DNA of 32,233 nt, taken from NCBI GenBank assembly GCA_030066335.1, contig JASJBV010000027.1, positions 1 to 32,233 on the forward strand. Direction: 5' to 3'. Within the stretch, counting starts at the first letter, position 1; every line of letters begins with the position of its first letter. The notes under the pieces were generated by a model, which did no database searches, was not told where the DNA came from, and saw only the letters and a program-made list of their open reading frames with translations. Below are positions 1,462 to 29,290 of the stretch, piece by piece. The position numbers and the translations under genes are program-made. Origin of the DNA: Gammaproteobacteria bacterium. GTDB lineage: Bacteria; Pseudomonadota; Gammaproteobacteria; GCA-001735895.

Positions 1462-4943
<3,482 letters not shown>

Positions 4944-12623: not shown

Positions 12624-15323
12624 ATGAGCGAAGAGAAAAGAAAAAAACTGCTGCTGGTCGATGCCAGTTCCTATCTATTCCGCGCTTTTCATGCCCTGCC
12701 GCCGCTGGTCAGTCATGGTCATCCGACCGGTGCGATCTACGGGGTGCTGAACATGTTACGCAAGCTGATCGATGATGAACAACCGGACCGTATCGCGGTG
12801 GTGTTCGATGCCAAGGGCAAGACTTTCCGCAACCGCCTGTATGCCGATTACAAGGCCAATCGTCCGCCGATGCCGGATGATCTGCGGGTGCAGATCGAGC
12901 CTTTGCACCAGATCATCGAGGCCCAGGGTTTGCCCCTGATCATGGTCGATGATGTCGAGGCCGATGATGTCATTGGCACCCTCGCCAGCAGCGCCCGCGA
13001 CCAGGGTTACCAGGTATTGATCTCGACCGGTGACAAGGACATGGCGCAACTGGTGGACCCGGATATCAGGCTGATCAACACGATGAACAACGTGATCATG
13101 GACGAGGCGATGGTGGCGGAGAAATTCCAGGTCCGACCGGACCAGATCATCGATTACCTGGCGCTGATGGGGGATAGCTCGGATAACATCCCGGGGGTGC
13201 CCAAGGTCGGGCCCAAGACCGCGAGTAAATGGCTGAATGAATACGACTCTTTGCAAAACATCATCGCCAATGCCGATCAATTCAAGGGCAAGATCGGTGA
13301 CAATCTACGCGAATCACTGGATTTTTTGCCGCTGTCCTATCAGTTGGCAACGATCAAACTCGACGTCGAGCTGGATTTCAGCCTGGATGATCTGCAGCAG
13401 GGCGAGGTCGATGCCAAGCTATTGAAGGATTTCTTTCAGCGCTTCGAGTTCAAGCGCTGGCTGCAGGAGCTGGAGGATGAGGGCCTGATCGGGGAATTGC
13501 CGACCACTACGGTCAGCACCGACTATCAGCTGGTGCTGGAACAAGCCGAATTCGATCGTTGGCTGGATATCATGCGCCGGGCAAACTGGATCGCGCTGGA
13601 TACCGAGACCACCAGCCTCGAGTACATGGATGCGCAACTGGTCGGCATATCCCTCAGCGTCGAAGCCGGTAAAGCCTGTTACATACCGCTGGCGCATCAT
13701 TATCCCGGTGCTCCGCAACAGCTTGCGCGCGCGGCGGTGCTGGATAGCCTAAAACCGTTGTTGCAAGACCCGGCGATCAGGAAGATCGGCCAGAACATCA
13801 AGTATGACTACCACGTATTCCTGAACTATGGCATCGAGCTGCAGGGCATCGAGCATGACACCATGCTCGAATCCTACGTATTGAACTCGACCGCCACCCG
13901 CCACAATATGAACGACCTGGCCAGTTACTATCTCAACCGCGATACCATCAGATACGAGGATGTCGCCGGCAAGGGCGCCAAGCAGATCGGTTTCGACCAG
14001 GTGGACCTGGAACAGGCGCTGACCTATGCCGCGGAAGATGCCGATGTCACCTTGCAGTTACATGAAACCCTGCAGGATCGACTGCAAGACGAAAAAAGCC
14101 TGTACCGGGTTTACCGGGATATCGAGATGCCGCTGATCCCGGTGTTGGCGCGGATGGAACATCACGGGGTGTGCATTGACAGCGCCCTGCTGCAAAAACA
14201 GGGGCAGGAGGTCGATCAGCAGCTGCAACAAATCCAGCAACAGATCTATCAGCTGGCCGATGCCAGCTTCAACCTGAGTTCACCCAAGCAGATTCAGGAG
14301 ATCCTGTTCGAGCGTCTGCAATTACCGGTGATCCGCAAAACCGCCAAGGGCCAGCCGTCGACCGCGGAAGACGTGCTCGAAGAGCTGGCCAAGGATTATG
14401 AAATCCCGCATCTGTTGCTCGAGCATCGCAGCCTGAATAAACTGAAGACGACCTATATCGACAAGCTGCCGCAGCAGATCAATCCGGCCACCGGCCGCAT
14501 CCATACCTCGTATCAACAGGCGGTGGCCTCGACCGGTCGCCTGTCCTCGACCAATCCCAATCTGCAGAACATCCCGATTCGCAACGAGCAGGGCCGGCGT
14601 ATCCGCGAGGCTTTCGTCGCACCGGCAGGCTATCGCATCATGGCTCTGGACTATTCGCAGATCGAATTACGCATCATGGCCCACCTGTCTGGCGATGAAA
14701 ACCTGCTCAAGGCTTTCGACCAGGGCCTGGACGTGCATCGCGCCACCGCCGCCGAGGTGTTTGCGGTCAGCACCGATGCGGTTTCGTCGGATCAGCGCCG
14801 CGCCGCCAAGGCGATCAACTTTGGCCTGATCTACGGCATGTCGGCGTTTGGCCTGGCGCGCCAGCTGAACATCGGTCGCAACGAGGCCCAGCAATACGTG
14901 GATCTGTATTTTGAACGTTATCCCGGGGTCAAGGCCTACATGGAGAATACCCGCGAACAGGCCCATGATCAGGGTTATGTGGAGACGGTTTACGGTCGTC
15001 GCTTGTACCTGCCGGAGCTCAAATCATCCAATGCACAGCGGCGTCAGTATGCCGAACGTACCGCGATCAACGCGCCGATGCAGGGCACCGCGGCGGACAT
15101 CATCAAGCGGGCGATGATCCGGGTCGACGAATGGTTATCCAGTGACGACGCCAAGGCCCACATGGTGATGCAGGTGCATGATGAACTGGTGTTTGAAGTT
15201 GACGAACAAGTTATTGATTCTTATGAGAAAAAATTTATCGAACTGATGACTTCGTCGGCTGATTTGACCGTTGGTCTGGAAGTCGATTGCGGGGTGGGGA
15301 TGAACTGGAACGAGGCCCATTGA
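12624..15323 (+). CDS. polA: DNA polymerase I
   Basis: PolA fills gaps and removes RNA primers. At 899 residues (928 in E. coli) it has all three activities by motif. The 5' nuclease domain occupies residues 1 to about 290 (conserved acidic 'DDVEADDVIG' and 'GDSSDNIPGVPKVGPKTA', quoted in part). The 3'-5' exonuclease has ExoI DTET at 326-329, ExoII 'NIKYDYH' and ExoIII 'YAAEDAD', so proofreading should be intact. The polymerase domain has motif A DYSQIELR at 676-683, motif B 'RRAAKAINFGLIYG' and motif C HDE at 852-854. No clear Shine-Dalgarno precedes the ATG. The gene is followed by a small-RNA locus and by engB on the other strand. Confidence 0.98.
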   Translation: MSEEKRKKLLLVDASSYLFRAFHALPPLVSHGHPTGAIYGVLNMLRKLIDDEQPDRIAVVFDAKGKTFRNRLYADYKANRPPMPDDLRVQIEPLHQIIEAQGLPLIMVDDVEADDVIGTLASSARDQGYQVLISTGDKDMAQLVDPDIRLINTMNNVIMDEAMVAEKFQVRPDQIIDYLALMGDSSDNIPGVPKVGPKTASKWLNEYDSLQNIIANADQFKGKIGDNLRESLDFLPLSYQLATIKLDVELDFSLDDLQQGEVDAKLLKDFFQRFEFKRWLQELEDEGLIGELPTTTVSTDYQLVLEQAEFDRWLDIMRRANWIALDTETTSLEYMDAQLVGISLSVEAGKACYIPLAHHYPGAPQQLARAAVLDSLKPLLQDPAIRKIGQNIKYDYHVFLNYGIELQGIEHDTMLESYVLNSTATRHNMNDLASYYLNRDTIRYEDVAGKGAKQIGFDQVDLEQALTYAAEDADVTLQLHETLQDRLQDEKSLYRVYRDIEMPLIPVLARMEHHGVCIDSALLQKQGQEVDQQLQQIQQQIYQLADASFNLSSPKQIQEILFERLQLPVIRKTAKGQPSTAEDVLEELAKDYEIPHLLLEHRSLNKLKTTYIDKLPQQINPATGRIHTSYQQAVASTGRLSSTNPNLQNIPIRNEQGRRIREAFVAPAGYRIMALDYSQIELRIMAHLSGDENLLKAFDQGLDVHRATAAEVFAVSTDAVSSDQRRAAKAINFGLIYGMSAFGLARQLNIGRNEAQQYVDLYFERYPGVKAYMENTREQAHDQGYVETVYGRRLYLPELKSSNAQRRQYAERTAINAPMQGTAADIIKRAMIRVDEWLSSDDAKAHMVMQVHDELVFEVDEQVIDSYEKKFIELMTSSADLTVGLEVDCGVGMNWNEAH

Positions 15324-15374
15324 CCGGTTGTCAGACCGAACAGAAAAAATTGTCACAACAGCTATATTTAATCA

Positions 15375-15405
15375 GAACTAAATGATTGTGTTTCGGTCAT
15401 ATAGT
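15375..15405 (+). promoter_or_regulatory. Candidate promoter of the polA-engB small RNA
   Basis: Two readings are possible. An extracytoplasmic (RpoE/AlgU-like) promoter would have -35 GAACTA (15375-15380) and -10 TCATA (15397-15401) with 16 bp between, close to the consensus GAACTT / TCNAA. A housekeeping promoter would use TATAGT (15400-15405), one mismatch from TATAAT, but with no good -35. Both place the transcript start at about 15407-15412. Confidence 0.45.
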
Positions 15406-15406
15406 T

Positions 15407-15521
15407 ATGCGCACAAGCCCGGCGCTAAGTTCGTCTGACATCTCCTGTCGGATGAACGGATCCGGAAACCCCACCGGATCAAGACTTAGACCCCGTCACA
15501 TGCAGTGACGGGGTTTTTTTT
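15407..15521 (+). ncRNA. Putative small regulatory RNA in the Spot 42 / ErsA locus
   Basis: The region downstream of polA folds into three consecutive stem-loops. Stem 1 has arms GTTCGTCTGACA (15429-15440) and TGTCGGATGAAC (15446-15457), fully paired over 12 bp with two G-U pairs, closing a UCUCC loop. Stem 2 has arms GATCCGG (15459-15465) and CCGGATC (15474-15480) with a C-rich 8-nt loop. Stem 3 is a Rho-independent terminator. The loops carry anti-Shine-Dalgarno-like sequence (UCUCC, CCCC), typical of sRNAs that block translation. The predicted length is about 115 nt. The polA-engB gap is where enterics encode Spot 42 and Pseudomonas encodes ErsA, and the flanking order engB-c4-dsbA also matches Pseudomonas. 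No open reading frame explains the structure. Homology to either RNA is inferred from position, not sequence identity. Confidence 0.7.
15491..15521 (+). terminator. Rho-independent terminator of the polA-engB small RNA
   Basis: A perfect 9-bp GC-rich stem (CCCCGTCAC at 15491-15499, GTGACGGGG at 15505-15513) with a 5-nt loop is followed by eight T residues (15514-15521). No T-run lies on the other side, so it acts only rightward. It can end both polA read-through and the small RNA. Confidence 0.93.
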
Positions 15522-15595
15522 GCATGGACGCAATTATACCGCGGAGGCCAGGGACGACCGGGAGCGGTGCTTTCGTCTTAAAGAAATTTCGCAGC

Positions 15596-16189
15596 TTAGG
15601 CCTCGAGCTGCAGAAAACGATCGCAAACCGTCTCGAATTCTTCCAGGCCCTCACCGTTCAATGCGGAAAACGCGGACACGCTGATCCCGTCATTCTGCAA
15701 CTGTTTACGGGTTTGCATGATGACCTTTTGCCTCGCAGCGTGTTTCAGCTTGTCCGACTTGGTCAGCAGGATGTGCAGCGGCAAATTGATATCCACCAGG
15801 TCGATCAGGCCCCAGTCGAGTTCACTCAGGCCGCGGCGAATATCGACCAGGATCACCAGGCCCATCAGCGACTGGCGTTGCAACAGGTATTGCGACAGTA
15901 CCTGGTTCCAGTGCTGGCGCATTTTCGGCGGTACCTTGGCATAGCCATAACCCGGTAGATCGACCAGGCGCCGCTGTTCGTCGAGTTGAAAAAAATTGAT
16001 CAGCTGGGTACGACCGGGCGTTTTACTGGTCTTACACAGGTTCTTCTGGCGGGTCAGACGGTTGATCGCCGTGGACTTGCCGGCATTGGAACGGCCGGCA
16101 AAGGCAATTTCGATACCTTGGTCCTCGACCAGTTGCGAGATCTTGAAGGCGCTGGATAAAAAACGGGCTTGCTGATAAAGATTTGCCAT
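15596..16189 (-). CDS. engB: Ribosome biogenesis GTP-binding protein EngB (YihA/YsxC)
   Basis: EngB is an essential small GTPase for 50S subunit assembly. The 197-residue protein shows G1 GRSNAGKS at 32-39, the G2 region 'KTPGRTQLINFF', G3 DLPGYG at 77-82 and G4 TKSD in 'HILLTKSDKL'. G5 is 'VSAFSA' near the C-terminus. It converges on polA and the small RNA, ending about 75 bp from the terminator. Its start is 100 bp from the divergent cytochrome c4 gene. The Shine-Dalgarno is weak. Confidence 0.96.
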   Translation of the reverse strand: MANLYQQARFLSSAFKISQLVEDQGIEIAFAGRSNAGKSTAINRLTRQKNLCKTSKTPGRTQLINFFQLDEQRRLVDLPGYGYAKVPPKMRQHWNQVLSQYLLQRQSLMGLVILVDIRRGLSELDWGLIDLVDINLPLHILLTKSDKLKHAARQKVIMQTRKQLQNDGISVSAFSALNGEGLEEFETVCDRFLQLEA

Positions 16190-17728: not shown

Positions 17729-17799
17729 GGCAGCTAAGCCGACATTGCAGCCCTGAGGTCTCAGGGTTAACATAGCAGCTCTGTTTGGAGGTGGTATAC

Positions 17800-18927
17800 A
17801 TGCATCATATCGTCATCGCCGGTGCGGGATTCGCCGCATGCACGGCGGTAAAAACCCTTAGAAAACGTGGCTTCAATGGCAAGATCAGTCTGGTCGCTCC
17901 CAGGGCCGAGCTGTTTTATTATCCGAGCCTGATCTGGGTACCGGCCGGTAAAAGGTCCTACCAGGACCTGGTGGTACCGTTGCATGAGTTCCTGAAAAAG
18001 AACAACGTTGAATATGTTCAATCCAGCGTCACCGGCGTCGATCCCGCCAGCAAAAGCCTGCAGCTGGAAGCCGACTCCATCAACTACGATGCATTGATCA
18101 TCGCCACCGGCGGTCGTTACATCCGCAAACTGCCGGGCATCGAACATGCCAAGATCGCCTGTAGTGGCTGGGATGATACCAAGGCTTTTTCCGACCAGCT
18201 GGCCAATATGAACGAGGGCACGATTGCGTTCGGATTTTCCGGTAATCCCAACGAACCCTCGGCGATGCGCGGCGGTCCGGTGTTCGAATTCCTGTTCGGG
18301 GTCGATACCCTGTTGCGAAAACAGGGCCGGCGTGACCAGTTCAACCTGGTTTTCTTCAGCCCGGCGGCCCGTCCGGGTCAACGCATGGGCGACAAAGCGG
18401 TCGACCGCCTGATGGGTGAAATGCAAAAGCGCGACATCCAAACTTACCTTGGCAGCAAGATGAAACGCTTCAGTGAAACCGGGGTGGAGACCGAGTCCAG
18501 CAGTTTCGATGCAGACCTGATTCTGTTTATTCCCGGCATGACCGGACCGGCCTGGGCCGCGGATTCCGGCCTGACCCTGTCCGAAGGTGGATTCTTCAAG
18601 GCCAACGAGTTCTGCCAGGTGGAAGGCCAGGAACATATCTTCGTTGCCGGTGATGCCGGCAGCTTCCCCGGTCCGGACTGGAAGCCGAAGCAGGCGCATA
18701 TGGCGGACCTGCAGGCCGAGGCCGCGGCGAAAAATGTGGTCGATGTGCTTAGCCTCAAACCAGCTCGCCATACCTTCAAGACCGAGCTGATCTGTATCGT
18801 CGATACCCTGACCAACGGCAGTCTGGTTTACCGCGACCCCAAGCGTGGTTTGATGATGAAAATGCCGCCGCTGCACTGGCTCAAGGTCGCGTTTGAGAAA
18901 ATTTACCTGCGCGCCTACACGCCCTGA
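17800..18927 (+). CDS. SQR/FCSD-like FAD-dependent oxidoreductase lacking one redox cysteine
   Basis: The 375-residue protein starts with the FAD-binding GAGFAA (residues 8-13), has 'ALIIATGGR' at about 98-106 and the second FAD motif 'HIFVAGDAGSFPG' at about 279-291. It ends with the amphipathic 'PPLHWLKVAFEKIYL' typical of membrane-associated sulfide:quinone reductases and flavocytochrome c sulfide dehydrogenase relatives. Cysteines are at 14, 121, 272 and 332. Cys332 matches the C-terminal redox cysteine by position, but the segment that should hold the middle one reads SAMRGGPVFEF with no cysteine. Canonical sulfide oxidation is therefore doubtful. The ATG at 17800 is chosen over an upstream TTG at 17785 because GGAGG lies between them at the right distance. 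It stands alone between dsbA and a convergent regulator. Confidence 0.8.
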   Translation: MHHIVIAGAGFAACTAVKTLRKRGFNGKISLVAPRAELFYYPSLIWVPAGKRSYQDLVVPLHEFLKKNNVEYVQSSVTGVDPASKSLQLEADSINYDALIIATGGRYIRKLPGIEHAKIACSGWDDTKAFSDQLANMNEGTIAFGFSGNPNEPSAMRGGPVFEFLFGVDTLLRKQGRRDQFNLVFFSPAARPGQRMGDKAVDRLMGEMQKRDIQTYLGSKMKRFSETGVETESSSFDADLILFIPGMTGPAWAADSGLTLSEGGFFKANEFCQVEGQEHIFVAGDAGSFPGPDWKPKQAHMADLQAEAAAKNVVDVLSLKPARHTFKTELICIVDTLTNGSLVYRDPKRGLMMKMPPLHWLKVAFEKIYLRAYTP

Positions 18928-18967
18928 CCCGAGACTCACCCGGCGGGGTCGTTCGGTCGCTGCGGAC

Positions 18968-20668
18968 TCAGGTGGTTTTCCAGTTGTAGATCGCCTCGAC
19001 CACGTTGCCGGCGTCCTGGTAATTCAGCGATTCGCATAAATCCCTGATCAACAGGATGCCGCGGCCGGCCAGACCGGTGTTGTCATCCGCCTTGAGGATG
19101 TCGTGGTTCAGATAATCGAAGCCCTTGCCGCTGTCCTCGATCCGGATCTTCATGCTGCGACTGTCCTCATTCTGTTCGACGTTCAGATAAAAACTGACAT
19201 GTCCGGTCTGCAGGTTATCCAGGCGCTGCTCACGCTCACTGAAATACTGGGCAAACCCGGAGGGATCCGATTTGAGCGCCGAATCCAGGCCCAACACGCC
19301 GTGGTCCAGTGCGTTGACATACAGCTCGGTTAATACCGTGAACAGCGACTGGCGTTCCTCTTCGATACCTTCCATTTCCATGACCTGGCCGATGATGATC
19401 GGTACCGGGTTGGTCTGGCGCAGACGATTGTCCTTCAGGGTCAGTGAATAGGCCCAGTCGCCATGAGTATCAAAATGATGGGCCTTGGGCTTGATATCGG
19501 TATGCGCCTCGAGCGGCGGGATCAAATCATCGGTACAGTTAATCTCGATCAGGGTGACATCATCGGCCAGTGAGCGGGCACCGCAGAACAGCTCGAGCTG
19601 GGTCAGGATATTGTCGAACACATCGACCGCGCCGGCGTGCTGGATCGCCTGCTCCAACCGCGCCTGGCCGAATTCCACATCATCTTCGGACCAGGCCTCG
19701 GTCAGCCCATCGCTGTACAGCACCAGCTTGTCGGCCTCGAACAGTGGGTAACTCTGGGCGATACTGCGGCTGTTGATATTATCCAGCACGCCGAGAGGTA
19801 CCGAGTTGGATTCGACATGATGCTTGATCTGGTTGGTGGCACCATCGAGGATCAACAGCGGCGGCATCCCCGCGTTGAAAACGGTTACCTGTTCCAGGTC
19901 ATGACTGACCCGGACCAGCAGGGTGCCGAGAAACATGCCGACCGGCAGGAACTGGCGTAGCTTTTTATTGATGCCGTTAAGGATATCTTCGGGTTCAAAA
20001 CCCTTCGCGGTCATTGCGCGAAACACCTCGGATACTGGCATCGCCCCGAGTGCGGCGGACAATCCATGGCCGGTGAAATCACCGAGCAGGAAATGCAGGT
20101 CACGCGATGGGCTGAACTCCGATAGGATCATGTCGCCGCTGAAGGTACTGGCAGGGCGGATGATGCTCTTGACCATCTGGTTGCGGATATTGCCTTTTTG
20201 GACCGCATTGATAAACACCTGCTCGGCAATTTCCTGTTCACGATGGATCAGGCTGTACATCCCGGCGACTTCGCGGTTGAGGTTGGCGATGCGCTGCATC
20301 GCCTGGATCTTGCTTTGCAGCAGGAAACGATCATAGGGCTTGACCAGGAAATCATCACCGCCGGCGTCGATACAGGCCTGCAGTGATTGTTCATCGGTCA
20401 TCGCGGTGAGAAAGATCACCGGGATAAAATTACGCCCGGCCATTTCCTTGATCTGGCGGGTAGCTTCATAGCCATCCATTTCCGGCATCATGACATCCAT
20501 GAACACGATGCTCGGCTGTTCCTGGCCGAACAGCTCGATCGCCTGTACCCCGTTCTCTGCCTCTATCGTCTGGTAATCGAGTTTTTTCAATAACGAACGC
20601 AGGATCAGACGATTGGTCATTTCATCATCGACGATCAGGGCTTTGGGCAGGATGGATTCTTGATTCAT
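18968..20668 (-). CDS. Response regulator with SpoIIE-type phosphatase and anti-sigma kinase domains (HsbR-like)
   Basis: The 566-residue protein has three parts. The receiver domain (1-125) has acidic pair D14-D15, phosphoacceptor D58 in 'FMDVMMPE' and K110. After a probable coiled-coil (about 115-155) comes a PPM/SpoIIE phosphatase domain with metal aspartates D179 (SGD) and D197 (GDFTGHG). The C-terminal HATPase_c domain of RsbW type (about 410-566) has N box 'ELYVNALDHG', 'EDSGKGFD' and 'GRGILLI'. This architecture matches HsbR of Pseudomonas and CrsR of Shewanella, which control an anti-anti-sigma protein by partner switching. No STAS-domain partner and no histidine kinase lie beside it here. 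It converges on the SQR-like gene and is divergent from recC. Confidence 0.9.
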   Translation of the reverse strand: MNQESILPKALIVDDEMTNRLILRSLLKKLDYQTIEAENGVQAIELFGQEQPSIVFMDVMMPEMDGYEATRQIKEMAGRNFIPVIFLTAMTDEQSLQACIDAGGDDFLVKPYDRFLLQSKIQAMQRIANLNREVAGMYSLIHREQEIAEQVFINAVQKGNIRNQMVKSIIRPASTFSGDMILSEFSPSRDLHFLLGDFTGHGLSAALGAMPVSEVFRAMTAKGFEPEDILNGINKKLRQFLPVGMFLGTLLVRVSHDLEQVTVFNAGMPPLLILDGATNQIKHHVESNSVPLGVLDNINSRSIAQSYPLFEADKLVLYSDGLTEAWSEDDVEFGQARLEQAIQHAGAVDVFDNILTQLELFCGARSLADDVTLIEINCTDDLIPPLEAHTDIKPKAHHFDTHGDWAYSLTLKDNRLRQTNPVPIIIGQVMEMEGIEEERQSLFTVLTELYVNALDHGVLGLDSALKSDPSGFAQYFSEREQRLDNLQTGHVSFYLNVEQNEDSRSMKIRIEDSGKGFDYLNHDILKADDNTGLAGRGILLIRDLCESLNYQDAGNVVEAIYNWKTT

Positions 20669-20838: not shown

Positions 20839-23800
20839 ATGCTGCATTTGCACCATAGTAACAAGCTCACCCAGTTAGTGGAAATCCTGCTCGACCAGAT
20901 GGGCAAGCAGCAACTGGGCGTGCTGGAGCCGGAGCAGATCCTGGTGCAGAATCCCGGCATCAAGCGCTGGCTGCAGCAACAGATCAGCCAACGCCATGCG
21001 CTGGCGGCCAACATCGAGTTTCCCCTGCCCTCGCGCTTCATCTGGGATATCTTTCTCGATCAGTTCGATGTCGAGCAGCTGTCGGCATACGATGACGAGG
21101 TATTGCGCTGGACCCTGATGCAGTTGCTGCATGAACACCGGGATGATCCCAAGCTCAAGCTGCTGGGTCCTTACCTGCAGCAGGATGAAGATGGGCTGGC
21201 GAGTTTTCAACTGGCGCAGAAACTGGCCGCCTTATTCAACCAGTACCTGGTATATCGGCCGTTGCTGATCGAGCAATGGCAACAGGGTCAGCCAGCGCAG
21301 GATGCGGTCGAGGCCTGGCAATCCCATCTATGGCGCTTACTACGTGCCCGCCAACCACAGGCGCATCGGGCCGAACTGATCCAGCGCCTGATCGCCGGTT
21401 TGCAGGCGGGACAGGCGGATAAGAACGGCCTGCCTCGACGCGTTTTCGTGTTTGCCATTTCCGCCATGTCTCCGCTGTACATGGATGTGCTGGCTGAACT
21501 GGGCCAGCAGATCGATGTCCATATCTTTATCCTCAATCCCTGCCAGCATTACTGGGGCGACCTGGAGGATAGAAAGCAACTGATCAGGCAGGGCGAGACC
21601 AGGGTCTCGGACAATGAGCTGTTGGCTTCGCTGGGTAAGCAGGGGCGCGACTATATCGATCAGTTTTATGAGCGCGACTATCCCTGTGCGGACACTATGG
21701 CGTTCGTCGAGATTGCCGGTGACAGCCTGCTCAATCGTATCCAGCGCCAGATCCTCAACCTGGAGCAGGACCAGCAGCAGCAGGATTTTTCCACTGACCG
21801 GTCGATCCAGATCACCAGCTGTTACAGCGAGTTGCGCGAACTGCAGGTGTTGCATGATCAATTGTTATCCCTGCTTGATCAGGATCCCAGCCTGCAGCCG
21901 CACGATATCGTGGTCATGTCGCCCGATATCAACACTCTGTCACCTTATATCGAGGCGGTATTCGGTGAACAACCGGAGCATAAGCGCATCCCTTTCAGTA
22001 TTTCGGATCAGGACGAGCTGGCTTCTTTCCCGTTGTTTCAGGCCATCGTCGACTGGATCGGATTAGCCAATAGCCGATTCACCGCCAGCGAATTACTGGC
22101 CTGGCTGGAACTGCCCGGTGTCCAGCGTGCTTATGAGCTGGACCAGGATGCATTGGAGATAATCCGTCACTGGATAACCAGCACTCATATCCACTGGGGT
22201 TATAACCAGCAGCACAAGCTTAAACTGGGGCTCGGTGATAATGAACAAAACACCTGGATCCAGGGCATCAACCAGTTGTTGACGGCTTACCTGTTACACG
22301 AGGATGTTGACATATTTGCCGGCCAGGTCGCGGCGGACAGCCTGGTCAGTAATGCAGAGCTGCATGCGCTGGGCAATCTGCATAAATTTATCGATGATTT
22401 ATTCCATTGGAGCGAACGCCTGGGCCAGCCGCTTAGCCTTCCGCAATGGCAGTTGCAGATTAATTATATGCTGGATAGATTTCTGCAGCTGGATGACGAT
22501 GAAGAATGGCTGGTAAAGACAATCCGCAACCAGTTCAGCAGCTGGCAGCAGCAGGGACTGCTGGGTGGCTTCAACGAGACCATCAGTGCCAGCCTGGTGC
22601 AGCATATGCTGACCAGGGCGATCACGGAATCGACGGCACAACATCATTATCTCAGTGGCGGCATCAACTTCTGCAACCTGATCCCGATGCGTACCCTGCC
22701 CTTTTCTGTGGTTTGCCTGATCGGGATGGGGGATGAGCATTTCCCCCGCGTCGAAGTGCCGATGCAGATGGACCTGATCGCCATGCACCCGCAAAAAGGT
22801 GACAGATCCAGGCGGGAGGATGATCGCTACATGTTCCTGCAATCCCTGATTTCGGCGCAGGATGTGTTCTACATCAGTTATGTAGGCAACAATAAAAAAG
22901 ATGATTCCGAGCTGGAACCCTCGGTCGTGGTCGCTGAATTGATTGATCATATCGAGCAGACTACCGGTCATATAATCCCGATCCGGCAAACATCATTACA
23001 GGCTTTCAGCAGCAACAATTATCATCATGGCAGTTACGCTGATCTGTGGCTACCGAATCCCGGTCATCAGCAACAGGCCTTCGATCAGGAGATACCCGCG
23101 ATCGCCAAAGAGAGTAATATCTCGTTGGATGAATTAATCGGATTTTACCGCAACCCGATCCGCTACTTCATGCTCAAGCGTCTGAATTTATCCTTGTATG
23201 ACAAGTCGGTGATGATCGATGATGATGAGCCGTTCACTCTGGACCCATTAAATCGTTATCGTATCTCGCATGCGATGTTGGATGACTTGTGGCAGGATCG
23301 GTTTATCAGCAAGGAAAAATACCTGAATCGTGGCAGCCTCGCTCAGCAGCATATCGGTATGCTGCAATTCAATGAGCTGGAGTCACGGATCGGGGAAATC
23401 CACCAGCAGATTAACGCCCATCCCGGATATGACGGCAGCATCATTTTCCAAAACAGTATCGACATTGAAACTCAACTGCTGGATGGCAGGATCCATAGCT
23501 ATGCGAGCAAGGGCCTGTTGCAGTTCACCCTGTCGCGACTTAACGGCCGCCAGGTTTTCAGCTGGTGGATACAGCACTGCTTTTTATGTGCTCTGGAAAA
23601 AATTGAATTCAGTGAATTTCTCCACCGAGACGGCAACGGTAAATTGAAAAAAATTGGTTTCGATTTGTTGCCAAAAGCGATTGCCCGACAACAGCTTGAG
23701 CAGCTGTTGGCAGGTTATAACCAGGGTAGCAATCGAATATGGCCGCTGTATCCCGACAGTGCTTTCGAATACGAAAAAATCCGCCAGCAGCAAGGTGAGG

Positions 23801-23985
23801 ATAAAGCCTGGTCGCGCCTGCAATCGCTGTGGAGCGGTGACAGTTTTGCCCGCTTCGCCGAGGCCGAGGATATCTATATCCAGACCAGTGGTAACAACGC
23901 CGGCTTGTTCAGCGACGAGTTTTTTCAACTGTCCTCAAGCTATATGCAACCCTTGTTACAGTCGATGGTGGAAACAGCATGGTAG
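20839..23985 (+). CDS. recC: Exodeoxyribonuclease V subunit gamma (RecC)
   Basis: RecC is the Chi-scanning, helicase-like but inactive subunit of RecBCD. At 1048 residues it is somewhat shorter than E. coli RecC (1122). The N-terminus 'LHHSNKLTQLVEILLDQM', followed by 'ILVQNPGIKRWLQQQIS' and 'ANIEFPLPSRFIWDIF', is strongly RecC-like. Further on, 'NLIPMRTLPFSVVCLIGMGD' and 'FPRVEVPMQMDLI' fit the conserved central part (all quoted in part). The stop overlaps the recB start by 7 bp (ATGGTAG), so the two are coupled. There is no ptr gene between recC and recB, unlike E. coli. The Shine-Dalgarno before the ATG is not evident. Confidence 0.96.
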   Translation: MLHLHHSNKLTQLVEILLDQMGKQQLGVLEPEQILVQNPGIKRWLQQQISQRHALAANIEFPLPSRFIWDIFLDQFDVEQLSAYDDEVLRWTLMQLLHEHRDDPKLKLLGPYLQQDEDGLASFQLAQKLAALFNQYLVYRPLLIEQWQQGQPAQDAVEAWQSHLWRLLRARQPQAHRAELIQRLIAGLQAGQADKNGLPRRVFVFAISAMSPLYMDVLAELGQQIDVHIFILNPCQHYWGDLEDRKQLIRQGETRVSDNELLASLGKQGRDYIDQFYERDYPCADTMAFVEIAGDSLLNRIQRQILNLEQDQQQQDFSTDRSIQITSCYSELRELQVLHDQLLSLLDQDPSLQPHDIVVMSPDINTLSPYIEAVFGEQPEHKRIPFSISDQDELASFPLFQAIVDWIGLANSRFTASELLAWLELPGVQRAYELDQDALEIIRHWITSTHIHWGYNQQHKLKLGLGDNEQNTWIQGINQLLTAYLLHEDVDIFAGQVAADSLVSNAELHALGNLHKFIDDLFHWSERLGQPLSLPQWQLQINYMLDRFLQLDDDEEWLVKTIRNQFSSWQQQGLLGGFNETISASLVQHMLTRAITESTAQHHYLSGGINFCNLIPMRTLPFSVVCLIGMGDEHFPRVEVPMQMDLIAMHPQKGDRSRREDDRYMFLQSLISAQDVFYISYVGNNKKDDSELEPSVVVAELIDHIEQTTGHIIPIRQTSLQAFSSNNYHHGSYADLWLPNPGHQQQAFDQEIPAIAKESNISLDELIGFYRNPIRYFMLKRLNLSLYDKSVMIDDDEPFTLDPLNRYRISHAMLDDLWQDRFISKEKYLNRGSLAQQHIGMLQFNELESRIGEIHQQINAHPGYDGSIIFQNSIDIETQLLDGRIHSYASKGLLQFTLSRLNGRQVFSWWIQHCFLCALEKIEFSEFLHRDGNGKLKKIGFDLLPKAIARQQLEQLLAGYNQGSNRIWPLYPDSAFEYEKIRQQQGEDKAWSRLQSLWSGDSFARFAEAEDIYIQTSGNNAGLFSDEFFQLSSSYMQPLLQSMVETAW

Positions 23986-26900
23986 TTGAGCAGGTCGATC
24001 TAAGGCAGCATCCTCTCAGCGGTATGTCGCTGATCGAAGCCAGTGCTGGCACGGGCAAAACCTATACCATCAGCCACCTCTACCTGCGTTGTTTGCTGGA
24101 GACGGATTACGAGGTCGAACAACTACTGGTGGTGACCTTTACCAATGCAGCAACCCAGGAGTTAAAGGGACGTATCCGCAAATTGATTCATCAGGTCTGG
24201 CAATATCTGGCAGATGAGGACATAGAAGATCATCGCTTTGACACCTTATTTGGCGAATACCGTGGACGCCCCGATGCTTTGTTCAAGCTGCAAAAAGCCC
24301 TGATCAATTTTGATGAGGCCGCCGTTTATTCGATCCATGGTTTTTGTCAACGTATCCTGAACCGCTACCCGGTCGAAACCAACTCCCTGATTGACCAGCA
24401 AATCATTGCCGATGAAAAGCAGTTGTTAGTGGATGCGGTACAGGACTACTGGCGCAAACACATCATCAACCGTGAAATTGATCGGCTGCAATGGATACTG
24501 CAAAGCTGGAAAAACCCGCAAGGGTTGCTGCAGGATATCCAGCCATTGCTCGGTTTCGAGCGTGATCTGCAACAGCTGTCACAACAGCTTGCGGGCCAGG
24601 CATTGCGTGCACAGCTACAGGATCTGTGGCAACAGCTCACGCAAGCCTGGCGGGAACATGACGAGTTGCAGGATATCCTGCTCAATAGCCCGGCCCTGAA
24701 TAAACAGCGAATCCAGAAAAATACGGTCAACCGTTTGTTTACCGAATTGACGGAGTTGTTCCAGCAACCACTGCCCTACGACCTGCCGGCGAAATGGGAA
24801 ATCATCACCGCCAACAAGCTAGCAGCCAGCGTGAAAAAAAATTGCAGCGATGAACGTCTGCTACACCGTTTTTTTACCTTAGCCGGTCAATTTGCCGATA
24901 TCCATCAGCAATGGCTGGAGCAGCTGCAAATCGAGTTTCTGATCGAGGCCGCGACCTACGTGCAGACAGCGCTCGACCGGGCCAAGAGCCAGGCCCAGAA
25001 TGTCTCGTTCAATGATTTAATTAAAAAAGTCGCGGCCGTGATCAATAACGATAATCCCTGGCTGATAGAGAAAATCAACCGCCAGTATCCACTGGCGATG
25101 GTCGATGAATTTCAGGATACCGATCAGCGTCAATACCAGATTTTCAAGACCTTGTACCAGGGGCGCGAGGACAGTGGCTTGATCATGATCGGAGATCCGA
25201 AACAGGCGATTTACAGTTTTCGTGGAGCCGATGTATTTACCTATCAACAGGCCAAACAGGCGACAGCGCGACAATACACCCTGGCCACCAACTATCGATC
25301 CAGTGCCAGCTATATCGATATGGTCAACGCGCTGTTCCAGCAGCAGGACGACGCCTTTGTGTTTCCGCGCCTGATCTCGTTTGAGCAGGCCACGGCCAGT
25401 GACCAGGTTGCCGGGCCATTGACCGAGGATGGAGAGGATGCGGCTCCGCTTGTTTGTTGGTTGCCCCCGGCAACTGACAAACCCCTGGCGAAAAACGAAG
25501 CCAGCCATTTTTTTGCCGCTGTTTGTGCCCAACAGATCAACGACTTGCTGCAGCGGGCGGAGCTGAAGATAGCGGGTGACCCGGTGCAGGCGCGCGACCT
25601 GGCGGTACTGGTGAAAACCGGGCGCCAGGCGCGTCTGGTCAAGCAATACCTGGCGGAACTGGGTATCAGCAGCGCGTTGGTGTTGCGGGATTCGGTGTTC
25701 GCCAGTGATCAGGCCCGGGAAATCAGCCTATTGCTGGAAGTCATCATTGAGCCGGCTAATATCCCTCGGCTGGCTGGACTGCTGAGCAGTGATTTATTCG
25801 GTTGGGATGCGGCGCAGATTTTCCAGCTGCAGCAGGATAACCAGCAACTGGTGGTGCTGCTCGAACAGATGAGAAGCTACCAACAGCTGTGGCAGGATAA
25901 GGGTGTGCTGTCGATGTTCTTTCGCCTGTTGTCCGAGCACCAGGTCGTGCAGAAAAATCTTGCTCATATCGAGGGTGAGCGGCGTGTGACCAACTGGTTG
26001 CATATCATGGAATTGCTGCAGCAACAGGCCGGTCAGCACGCCAGCCAAAGCCAGGCCCTGCACTGGTTGCAACTACAGCGTGAGCAGGCCGAGCTGCAAC
26101 AGGAAAACGATGAACATCAGCTGCGCCTGGAGAGTGACAGCGACCTGGTCAGGATCGTCACCATCCACAAGAGCAAGGGCCTGGAATATCCCATCGTGTT
26201 TCTGCCGTTCATGTGGGATGTGCCGGGTAATCGCAATCGGCCCAACAGCTACAGTTATCACGATGACCAGGGTTACAAACGGTTGATGGTTTATGATGAA
26301 ACACAGCGCCAACGCTGGCGTCAGGAAAACCTGGCCGAGCAGGTACGCCTGTTCTACGTGGCCATGACCCGTGCCAGGTATCGTTGTTACCTGGGCTGGG
26401 GCCATATCAGCGGTGCGGGCAGCTCCGCCATCGCCCATTGCCTGTATCCGCGGGCCGAGGATACGGATCGTTATCCCCTGGATCTGCAGGCAGCCGACAG
26501 GGATTCGTTACGCGCGCCCTTTGCACAGATCAATCGGCAGCAGCAGCTGGTGGACATAATCGAGCCTGAGCTGCAACCGCTGGTAAGCGCAGAAGCATCG
26601 AAACAGGAAACATCATCGCTATCGGCACTCGAGTTTAAGCGTCACATCGAACAGCAATGGCGAATCAGTTCATATAGCCAGATTGCCACCAGTGGTCACA
26701 GTGAACGTACCGATCGCCCCGACTATGATGCAGTGGTGGAGCTATCGGCAGCAACCGATAATATCGTGATGGCATCTGGGTATACCCGCTACTCCTTTGC
26801 TAAAGGGGCCAAAGCCGGAAGTTTTTTACATGATATTCTTGAGCACCAGGATTTTACCCGGTCTATAGATATCGAATTGATTCGACAAAAAAGCACCGAA

Positions 26901-27476
26901 TATGGTTTTGATGAAGCCTGGCTGGAATTGATCGCAGGCTGGATCGATGAGGTATTATGCTGTGATCTCGGTGGTTTCAGTTTGGCGGATATCGATACGA
27001 CAAGCCGAATCAGTGAGATGGAATTCTATCTATCGATCGGAGAACTTAGAGCGTCGCAACTCAACCAGCTCCTGCAAACCAACGATTATCTGCAGCCGCA
27101 TCAGCATTACAGCTTTGCCGATATTCGTGGTTTTCTAAAGGGCTTTATCGATCTGGTATTCGAACAGGATGGCCGCTATTTCATCGCCGATTACAAGAGT
27201 AATTACCTGGGATCCAGACCGGAGGATTACGATCAGGCGCGGTGCCGGGCGGCGATGTATGAACATCATTATCATCTGCAGTACCTGATCTACAGCCTGG
27301 CGTTACATCGATACCTGCAACAGCGATTGCCCGGTTATGATTATGCCCAGCATTTCGGCGGCGTTTATTACCTTTTCCTGCGTGGAATGCATGCAGATAA
27401 CAGCAATAACAATGGTATCTTTTTCCACCGTCCCGAACCCGAGCTCATCCGGCAGCTCGAGGATATGTTTGACTGA
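23979..27476 (+). CDS. recB: Exodeoxyribonuclease V subunit beta (RecB)
   Basis: RecB is the 3'-5' helicase and the nuclease of RecBCD. The 1165-residue protein (1180 in E. coli) has Walker A ASAGTGKT at 21-28, UvrD-type helicase motifs ('VDEFQDTDQRQY', 'GDPKQAIYSFRGAD', 'TIHKSKGLEYPIVF'), and a C-terminal nuclease domain. The nuclease residues are present: histidine in 'GSFLHDILEH', aspartate in 'GFIDLVFE', and D1071 and K1073 in 'ADYKSNYLG'. All catalytic residues therefore appear intact. It overlaps recC by 7 bp and shares one base with the recD ATG. Confidence 0.97.
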   Translation: MVVEQVDLRQHPLSGMSLIEASAGTGKTYTISHLYLRCLLETDYEVEQLLVVTFTNAATQELKGRIRKLIHQVWQYLADEDIEDHRFDTLFGEYRGRPDALFKLQKALINFDEAAVYSIHGFCQRILNRYPVETNSLIDQQIIADEKQLLVDAVQDYWRKHIINREIDRLQWILQSWKNPQGLLQDIQPLLGFERDLQQLSQQLAGQALRAQLQDLWQQLTQAWREHDELQDILLNSPALNKQRIQKNTVNRLFTELTELFQQPLPYDLPAKWEIITANKLAASVKKNCSDERLLHRFFTLAGQFADIHQQWLEQLQIEFLIEAATYVQTALDRAKSQAQNVSFNDLIKKVAAVINNDNPWLIEKINRQYPLAMVDEFQDTDQRQYQIFKTLYQGREDSGLIMIGDPKQAIYSFRGADVFTYQQAKQATARQYTLATNYRSSASYIDMVNALFQQQDDAFVFPRLISFEQATASDQVAGPLTEDGEDAAPLVCWLPPATDKPLAKNEASHFFAAVCAQQINDLLQRAELKIAGDPVQARDLAVLVKTGRQARLVKQYLAELGISSALVLRDSVFASDQAREISLLLEVIIEPANIPRLAGLLSSDLFGWDAAQIFQLQQDNQQLVVLLEQMRSYQQLWQDKGVLSMFFRLLSEHQVVQKNLAHIEGERRVTNWLHIMELLQQQAGQHASQSQALHWLQLQREQAELQQENDEHQLRLESDSDLVRIVTIHKSKGLEYPIVFLPFMWDVPGNRNRPNSYSYHDDQGYKRLMVYDETQRQRWRQENLAEQVRLFYVAMTRARYRCYLGWGHISGAGSSAIAHCLYPRAEDTDRYPLDLQAADRDSLRAPFAQINRQQQLVDIIEPELQPLVSAEASKQETSSLSALEFKRHIEQQWRISSYSQIATSGHSERTDRPDYDAVVELSAATDNIVMASGYTRYSFAKGAKAGSFLHDILEHQDFTRSIDIELIRQKSTEYGFDEAWLELIAGWIDEVLCCDLGGFSLADIDTTSRISEMEFYLSIGELRASQLNQLLQTNDYLQPHQHYSFADIRGFLKGFIDLVFEQDGRYFIADYKSNYLGSRPEDYDQARCRAAMYEHHYHLQYLIYSLALHRYLQQRLPGYDYAQHFGGVYYLFLRGMHADNSNNNGIFFHRPEPELIRQLEDMFD

Positions 27477-29290
27477 TGGCCGATCTGAATATCATCCGTC
27501 AGCATATCCTGAACAATGGCATCGACTATTGTCATTTTACTCTGGCCCAATATATCAATCGCAGCATACCCGAAGCCAGCGAGCTGTGCCTGTGGCTGGC
27601 GGTACTGGTCAACCTGGAAATAGACCAGGCGAATGTGTGCCTGGATATAGAGTCAGTCTCGGAAAAATCCGCGGCCTGGGGTTGGCGCGAGATACCCGGG
27701 CTGGAGCAACTGCAGAATGATATCGCTGACTGCCCGGTGATCGGCAGGCCAGGAGATGTGCGGCCACTGATTGCGGATAACGGCAAGCTTTATCTGCACC
27801 GCTATTTCCACTACGAGACGAGCATCAGCCAACATTTGTTAGCCAGGACCGGACAGCAACCGCTGCTGGTAGAGAGTCAGATCAAAAACATAGACTCGGT
27901 GTTTGCGGCTGAGCAGGGTGATCCTGAGGTCGATATGCAAAAGATTGCCGCCATCGTCTGCAGCCTGCATCCGTTGGTTATCATCTCTGGCGGCCCCGGT
28001 ACCGGTAAAACCTATACCGTTAGCAGGGTGCTGGCGATCTTGATCCAACAGCAACCGGACATCAAGATCCAGCTCGCGGCCCCGACCGGCAAGGCGGCAA
28101 TGAGACTGTCCCAATCGATCGTCAAACTACACCAGCGGTTGGGGCTGGACGATGCGATACAGCAGCGCATACCGCAACAGGCATTGACCCTGCATCGTTT
28201 GTTGGCGATCGATCGCTATCATCACCGGCCCAGGTATCACCAGGCCAATCCGCTGGATTGTGACCTGCTGGTCGTCGATGAAGCCTCGATGATCGATCAA
28301 CAGATGATGGCCATGCTGTGTAATGCATTGGCGCCGGATGCGCGATTAATTTTACTCGGTGACAAGGACCAGTTATCGTCGGTCGAGGCTGGTAGTGTAT
28401 TTGCCGATTTATGTGGCGGCCTGCAGTCTACCGGGTTTAATCAAGCGCAACGGTATTTGCTTGCACAGGCCTGGCAGTATGAGCTTAAGCTGAATCAATC
28501 AACCCATGCCCTCGCGGACCAACTGGTGGTACTGGATAAAAGTCATCGATTCGATGCATCATCCGCAATTGGTAAGCTGGCCAGCACCATCAATAGGGGG
28601 CAAAGTCATCAATGCCTGCAGATAATGGATAACCAGGACAACAATATCCAGTGGTTGCCAATGGAGGATCGTCGGTTAGCGGTTGCGCTCAAACAGCAGG
28701 CAGATAATGTCTATTGGCAAATGATGCAGGCCGCTGACATCGACCAGGCATTCGCCCTGTTTCATCGATACCAGATCCTCAGCGCGGTATGGTCGGGGCC
28801 GGCCGGTGTGCATAACATCAACACCATTATCGAGCAGCATTTAAAACTGAAGTCCGGCATTGACCAAAATCTGCAGTATTACCAGGGCAAGCCATTGATG
28901 GTGACGCGCAATGTCTATGAATACAATCTGTTCAACGGGGATATCGGTATTATCTGGCCGGACCAGGACGGGGAGTTGAAAATCTGGTTTGCAAGCGGTC
29001 ACGCCGAGTATCGTGTGCTGTCTCTATCCCAGCTTCCGCAACATGAAATAGCCTACGCAATGACCGTGCACAAATCCCAGGGTTCCGAATTCGAGCATGT
29101 GCTGATGGTGTTGCCGTTCGAGGATGTCGAGGTGTTAACCCGGGAACTGTTGTATACCGCGATCACCCGTGCCGCCAAATCGCTGGAAATCTGGGGTCAG
29201 GCAGATATCATCACCCGCACTGTCGAGCGTAAAACTCAACGGGTGTCGGGGCTGATGCAACGATTACAACTTACAGCCACCAGACCATGA
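27476..29290 (+). CDS. recD: Exodeoxyribonuclease V subunit alpha (RecD)
   Basis: RecD is the 5'-3' superfamily-1B helicase of RecBCD. The 604-residue protein (608 in E. coli) has an N-terminal RecB-contacting domain (about 1-120), Walker A GGPGTGKT at 172-179, Walker B 'LLVVDEASMID', 'LLGDKDQLSSVEAG', and the C-terminal motif 'AYAMTVHKSQGSEFEHVL' with 'LLYTAITRA'. Its ATG overlaps the recB TGA by one base, and its own TGA overlaps the next ATG (ATGA), so the whole run is translationally coupled. Confidence 0.97.
   Translation: MADLNIIRQHILNNGIDYCHFTLAQYINRSIPEASELCLWLAVLVNLEIDQANVCLDIESVSEKSAAWGWREIPGLEQLQNDIADCPVIGRPGDVRPLIADNGKLYLHRYFHYETSISQHLLARTGQQPLLVESQIKNIDSVFAAEQGDPEVDMQKIAAIVCSLHPLVIISGGPGTGKTYTVSRVLAILIQQQPDIKIQLAAPTGKAAMRLSQSIVKLHQRLGLDDAIQQRIPQQALTLHRLLAIDRYHHRPRYHQANPLDCDLLVVDEASMIDQQMMAMLCNALAPDARLILLGDKDQLSSVEAGSVFADLCGGLQSTGFNQAQRYLLAQAWQYELKLNQSTHALADQLVVLDKSHRFDASSAIGKLASTINRGQSHQCLQIMDNQDNNIQWLPMEDRRLAVALKQQADNVYWQMMQAADIDQAFALFHRYQILSAVWSGPAGVHNINTIIEQHLKLKSGIDQNLQYYQGKPLMVTRNVYEYNLFNGDIGIIWPDQDGELKIWFASGHAEYRVLSLSQLPQHEIAYAMTVHKSQGSEFEHVLMVLPFEDVEVLTRELLYTAITRAAKSLEIWGQADIITRTVERKTQRVSGLMQRLQLTATRP

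Follow-up and report, generated by a model that had tools for sequence, protein, structure and literature searches.

What occupies the 272-nt gap between polA and engB in this gammaproteobacterial genome, and how does it relate to the small RNAs (sRNAs) known from the same place in other bacteria? The original prediction for the window, by which we mean the whole 32,233-nt stretch of DNA analysed here, put an unannotated three-stem sRNA in the gap and suggested a family link to Spot 42 and ErsA. Our sequence comparisons indicate that the small RNA gene in the polA-engB gap is real and conserved and that its product folds into four hairpins; the gene, its fold and its promoter motif are well supported by these comparisons.

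The gene content of the window is that of an origin-type region: gyrB, dnaA, yidC, mnmE, polA and engB (Table 1), together with genes encoding a cytochrome c and a DsbA-like protein in the same neighborhood as polA and engB. NCBIfam matches confirmed polA and engB as the two flanking genes, as predicted. Farther along, two frames adjoin recC-recB-recD, one of 390 aa that had no Pfam or NCBIfam match and one of 566 aa that had no NCBIfam match at E <= 1e-30.

Table 1 Features of the window, with positions counted from its first nucleotide
Feature	Position	Strand	Description
gyrB	1462-3864	-	
dnaA	6309-7631	-	
polA	12624-15323	+	Upstream neighbor; NCBIfam match above cut-off
Sigma-E/AlgU-type promoter	15374-15401	+	AGAACTA (-35), GTCATA (-10); spacing GAAC-N17-GTC
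Small RNA gene, about 118 nt	15404-15521	+	Fold z-score, covariance models R1 and R2, covariation
Hairpin SL1	15409-15425	+	GCGC 15409-15412 pairs with GCGC 15422-15425; loop ACAAGCCCG, includes AGCCC
Hairpin SL2	15429-15457	+	12-bp stem, loop UCUCC
Hairpin SL3	15459-15480	+	7-bp stem, loop AAACCCCA
Intrinsic terminator SL4	15488-15521	+	Hairpin 15488-15516, 12 bp, loop AUGCA; eight T 15514-15521
engB (yihA/ysxC)	15596-16189	-	Convergent downstream neighbor; NCBIfam match above cut-off
390-aa frame	17767-18939	-	
566-aa frame	18968-20668	-	
recC-recB-recD	20839-29290		

The sRNA segment had a minimum free energy of -55.9 kcal/mol, compared with -32.3 +/- 3.7 kcal/mol in dinucleotide shuffles (z = -6.44), and 0/200 shuffles folded as well. 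The predicted 12-bp stem with a UCUCC loop, 7-bp stem with a C-rich loop and terminator with eight T residues were all located where they had been placed (SL2, SL3 and SL4), while the 5'-most of the four hairpins, SL1, had been missed. The predicted span of 15407-15521 was likewise correct at its 3' end, given by the T run, and too short at its 5' end: from the covariance model and a sigma-E-type promoter that had also been overlooked, the start most likely lies near 15404. SL1 was kept in relatives, where it was longer than in the window, and a linker of only 3 nt (15426-15428) joins it to SL2. In congeners SL2 had an 8-bp stem and a 10-12-nt loop (UCCCUCCU...); the stem in the window was extended to 12 bp and exposed UCUCC only, which may be a modification of the targeting loop peculiar to this lineage. 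Because this loop is unusually small (5 nt), it may work less well here. An ATG-initiated frame is present at 15407, and relatives L005, L006 and L007 have ATG CGC TAA there; we ruled out a small protein from this ATG since the frame closes at codon 3 in these three relatives.

A homologue lay 3' of polA in 30 other genomes of the same family (f1), distributed over three genera. The f1 homologues shared a layout of a hairpin GCGC..AGCCC..GCGC, a hairpin with loop UCCCUCCUAU or UUCCCUCCUGUU, a hairpin with loop AAACCCCA(U), and a terminator. R1, a covariance model trained on 19 sequences of the single genus g3, to which the window does not belong, scored the window at 61.6 bits (E ~4e-15, all E-values being rough as calibration was shortened) and members of the window's own genus at 62-79 bits. 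R2, a model from a diverse alignment that had the window in its training set, scored the window at 81.1 bits. No Rfam model reached its gathering score at the locus in the window and the eight f1 relatives tested. One genome of the window's genus (G001) carried two polA-RNA loci with clearly different RNAs, L051 on contig 138 and L006 on contig 26; the short contig that carries L051 probably comes from a contaminant belonging to another family.

In a plain MAFFT alignment of all 31 sequences, SL2 was misaligned between genera, and we therefore used a structure-guided model. For the structure test we used 53 distinct sequences, drawn from f1 and from 18 further families. Within these, 97.0% of cells were paired, a figure somewhat inflated because the alignment (A5) was fitted to the structure. 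Double-sided, compensatory change occurred in 30/31 base pairs and in 342 cells (shuffled mean, 86), and the covariation score of 0.590 compared with 0.190 in shuffles and <=0.072 when the structure was slid by 1-3 columns. Compensatory change supported all four helices, and its excess is too large for alignment fitting to explain. The stems are conserved by compensatory substitution in relatives, on which the original prediction had staked itself. The least variable parts of the RNA were the loop cores AGCCC, CUCC and ACCCC, where the core C positions mostly had 0-0.4 bits of variation versus a stem mean of 0.99.

The sequence 5' of the RNA had little in common from genome to genome apart from GAAC(T/C) and GTC, usually 17 nt apart, which is the layout of RpoE/AlgU promoters. 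A search for GAAC-N15..20-TC ending within -14 to +4 of the RNA start found the motif in 31/31 f1 members (window counted) and in 59/86 other RNAs; the control, 45 nt further upstream, gave 0 and 0, and shuffled sequence gave 2-2.5%. In a minority of lineages, at L073, L076, L059, L060, L062 and L066 the RNA was kept with no sigma-E-type motif at the expected place, and control of the RNA may have switched in these lineages.

Hairpins that come directly after polA on its own strand and finish with a good terminator could be mainly the terminator or 3' UTR of polA, with any sRNA a by-product of polA mRNA processing. We consider this very improbable, given that all 31 f1 members have the promoter-like motif after the polA stop codon and before the RNA, with unrelated sequence around it, and that conservation is highest in the loops, which contribute nothing to termination. 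RNAs of the group also occur away from polA (at L151, beside engB and hemB) and in tandem copies with separate promoters. A plain polA terminator was rejected on the conservation of the motif, the conservation of the loops and the copies away from polA.

The RNA could also be an sRNA of the group that is not sigma-E-driven here, a housekeeping or growth-phase regulator under another promoter as in the lineages that lack the motif. The motif was absent from the expected place in 27/86 other relatives, and AGAACTA/GTCATA in the window departs at a few positions from the E. coli sigma-E consensus, GGAACTT/GTCTAA. No sigma-70-like site was found in the sRNA region either. This reading appears unlikely to us: the motif stands at a fixed distance in 31/31 f1 members, and the source genome encodes RpoE (319 bits, cut-off 236). 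A search upstream of rpoE in the source genome found no sigma-E promoter, so the promoter consensus is not calibrated within that genome.

We searched 369 evenly sampled genomes of the class to evaluate the distribution of the RNA. R2 matched 183/369 genomes, about half, and R1 matched 42. The Rfam model for anti-hemB (RF02837) matched 167/369 at E <= 0.001, with 20 over its cut-off, and that for ErsA (RF01719) matched 13/369, with one over its cut-off. Matches of R1, R2 and RF02837 often fell at common coordinates (e.g. in G398, G044, G306, G166 and G141). Loci adjoining polA and/or engB made up 23/29 of the R1 loci outside the source genome, 23/28 of the RF02837 loci and 14/20 of the weaker R2 matches, and one more of the latter lay beside the cytochrome c and dsbA genes of the same neighborhood. 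In a broad DNA pattern scan about half of the matches, many of them in other phyla, were due to chance and had no polA or engB nearby. We classify the window RNA as an unannotated, divergent member of a C-rich-loop group that is found in about half of the sampled Gammaproteobacteria and keeps its position at polA-engB, which agrees with the original suggestion that it could be a divergent member of an sRNA family conserved in position. The result is a well-supported sRNA gene in a group of marine and symbiont bacteria, mostly uncultured and apparently including the Olavius algarvensis Gamma 3 endosymbiont, where no Rfam family passes its cut-off at this locus.

Several loci of the survey had other arrangements. 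At L151 (867-2696), one of the RF02837 loci, engB was followed by the RNA on the opposite strand and then by hemB (porphobilinogen synthase). Two to four tandem copies of the RNA occurred at L171 (G205 contig 33:13148-13903), L083, L085, L147, L152 and L153, and tandem copies were likewise present in G297, G312 and G371. Each copy in L171, L083 and L153 had its own sigma-E-type motif, which recalls multicopy stress sRNAs. At L063 a c-di-GMP-I riboswitch (2037-2121, minus strand; 77.9 bits, cut-off 35) lay between polA and the sRNA on the same strand.

We infer the transcription and mechanism of the window RNA from ErsA and from sX13 of Xanthomonas. By this analogy it is probably a trans-acting envelope-stress sRNA that is made from its own sigma-E-type promoter and base-pairs through its C-rich loops with Shine-Dalgarno or G-rich sites of mRNAs, mostly blocking translation. 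Envelope stress would free RpoE, which would transcribe the RNA of about 118 nt from the RpoE/AlgU-type promoter until the RNA's own terminator ends it. The four hairpins would then act as a scaffold presenting the C-rich loops AGCCC, UCUCC and ACCCC, and these would base-pair, at the start of target mRNAs, with Shine-Dalgarno sequences or other sites rich in G. Pairing would mostly block translation, as for sX13 and partly ErsA, and the result would be a post-transcriptional arm of the envelope-stress response. Repression need not be the only outcome, since ErsA activates amrZ and anr.

The usual SL2 loop of f1 contains CCUCCU, which is the anti-Shine-Dalgarno core of 16S rRNA. Such loops, together with the repetition of one motif over several C-rich loops, would also suit an RNA that has no particular mRNA targets and mainly binds protein, as a CsrA/RsmA- or Hfq-type sponge, or titrates ribosomal Shine-Dalgarno recognition. 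We regard this as quite improbable, as CsrA sponges present GGA loops, not C-rich ones, and particular mRNAs are the targets of ErsA and sX13, the nearest analogues that have been studied. The source genome encodes Hfq (96.8 bits, cut-off 61.7), and its hfq leader had only a generic AGGAGA match.

Spot 42 resembles the window RNA in lying in the gene gap downstream of polA and in being a trans-acting sRNA. The original prediction had noted that the sequence is not visibly Spot 42, and the Spot 42 model (RF00021) indeed gave no match in 15200-15700 at E <= 10. With no match in the source genome either, and only one weak match in the 369 genomes, Spot 42 identity was rejected. To our knowledge, Spot 42 is not known as a sigma-E-driven sRNA. 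Its repression by cAMP-CRP is stated in the title of a 1988 paper cited in PMC3771888. Of the proposed link to Spot 42 and ErsA, the Spot 42 half is unsupported; ErsA shares the position, the promoter type and C-rich loops with the window RNA, and the nearest family by sequence is a third one.

That family is anti-hemB, or Burkholderia RNA 7 (RF02837; ncS04 of B. cenocepacia, PMC5688073), a 105-nt RNA that is expressed in Burkholderia (PMC5688073). The window scored 22.5 bits with the anti-hemB model, under its gathering cut-off of 49.5, and five class relatives that were found with R1 passed the cut-off at the same place. Anti-hemB was the best Rfam family for relatives L004 (35.7 bits, E 9.4e-7) and L010 (26.7 bits). 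The top low-threshold Rfam match, suhB/mmgR (24.6 bits, cut-off 41), was dropped because L010 and L004 gave anti-hemB clearly first. Like the window RNA, anti-hemB has C-rich loops and loci that lie 3' of engB in convergent orientation. The window RNA differs in adjoining polA instead of hemB; the hemB layout was seen in L151, and the engB-RNA-hemB order there explains the name anti-hemB and ties the family to the 3' side of engB. The Rfam model of anti-hemB (81 positions) also lacks the SL1 hairpin. The literature searched contained no sigma-E link for anti-hemB and mentioned neither the sharing of a sigma-E-type promoter nor the connection to anti-hemB, and we found no publication joining polA, engB, anti-hemB and sigma-E.

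ErsA (Pseudomon-1, RF01719) is the best-studied analogue by position, promoter and size. Its gene is located in the polA-engB gap (PMC8575079), as is that of the window RNA, its transcription is strictly sigma-22 (AlgU)-dependent (PMC7565897), and the ErsA locus in our dataset (L170) had the same promoter layout as the window. In the literature found, sigma-E-type control is reported for ErsA only, while the sigma-E-type motif was on most of the group described here. ErsA represses algC (PMC7565897, PMC8575079, PMC8395346), in addition to activating the targets named above. Both RNAs have C-rich loops and a terminator, but the window RNA lacks the U-rich, single-stranded domain II that lies between SL1 and SL2 in ErsA (PMC8575079). 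Homology of the window group to ErsA appears only marginal: the window scored 21.7 bits with RF01719, under the gathering cut-off of 50, R2 gave 19 bits at the same place in the ErsA locus, and that locus had no anti-hemB match up to E = 10. Weak ErsA-model matches in several other genomes coincided with R2 matches, which suggests bridges between the two, short of proof of common descent.

sX13 of Xanthomonas, which we liken to the window RNA by place and loops from its description and not by sequence, is 115 nt long, lies downstream of polA and has hairpin loops CCCC, CCCC and CCCCC (PMC3771888). Through its C-rich loops it represses mRNAs that carry G-rich motifs close to the start codon, and it was reported in Xanthomonadaceae only (PMC3771888). 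The window RNA also lies downstream of polA and has C-rich SL1 and SL3 loops; its SL2 loop is UCUCC, and its terminator loop, AUGCA, is not C-rich. The 5' region of sX13 is unstructured where the window RNA has SL1, and the downstream neighbor of sX13 is the hypothetical gene XCV4199, compared with engB in the window. The sX13 authors noted that sRNAs at polA occur in several groups, so the positional idea was already known, and raised the question of whether other polA loci encode similar ones (PMC3771888); related RNAs in 183/369 genomes of the class are a testable answer. We hypothesize that ErsA, anti-hemB and sX13 form one family. In this hypothesis, to which we give an even chance, ErsA, anti-hemB and possibly sX13 would be lineage names for a single sRNA gene of ancient origin, with C-rich loops and sigma-E control, that lies next to engB, in most cases with polA on its other side, throughout Gammaproteobacteria in the broad (GTDB) sense. 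If true, this one gene would be a basic post-transcriptional envelope-stress arm outside enterics, sometimes amplified into tandem arrays.
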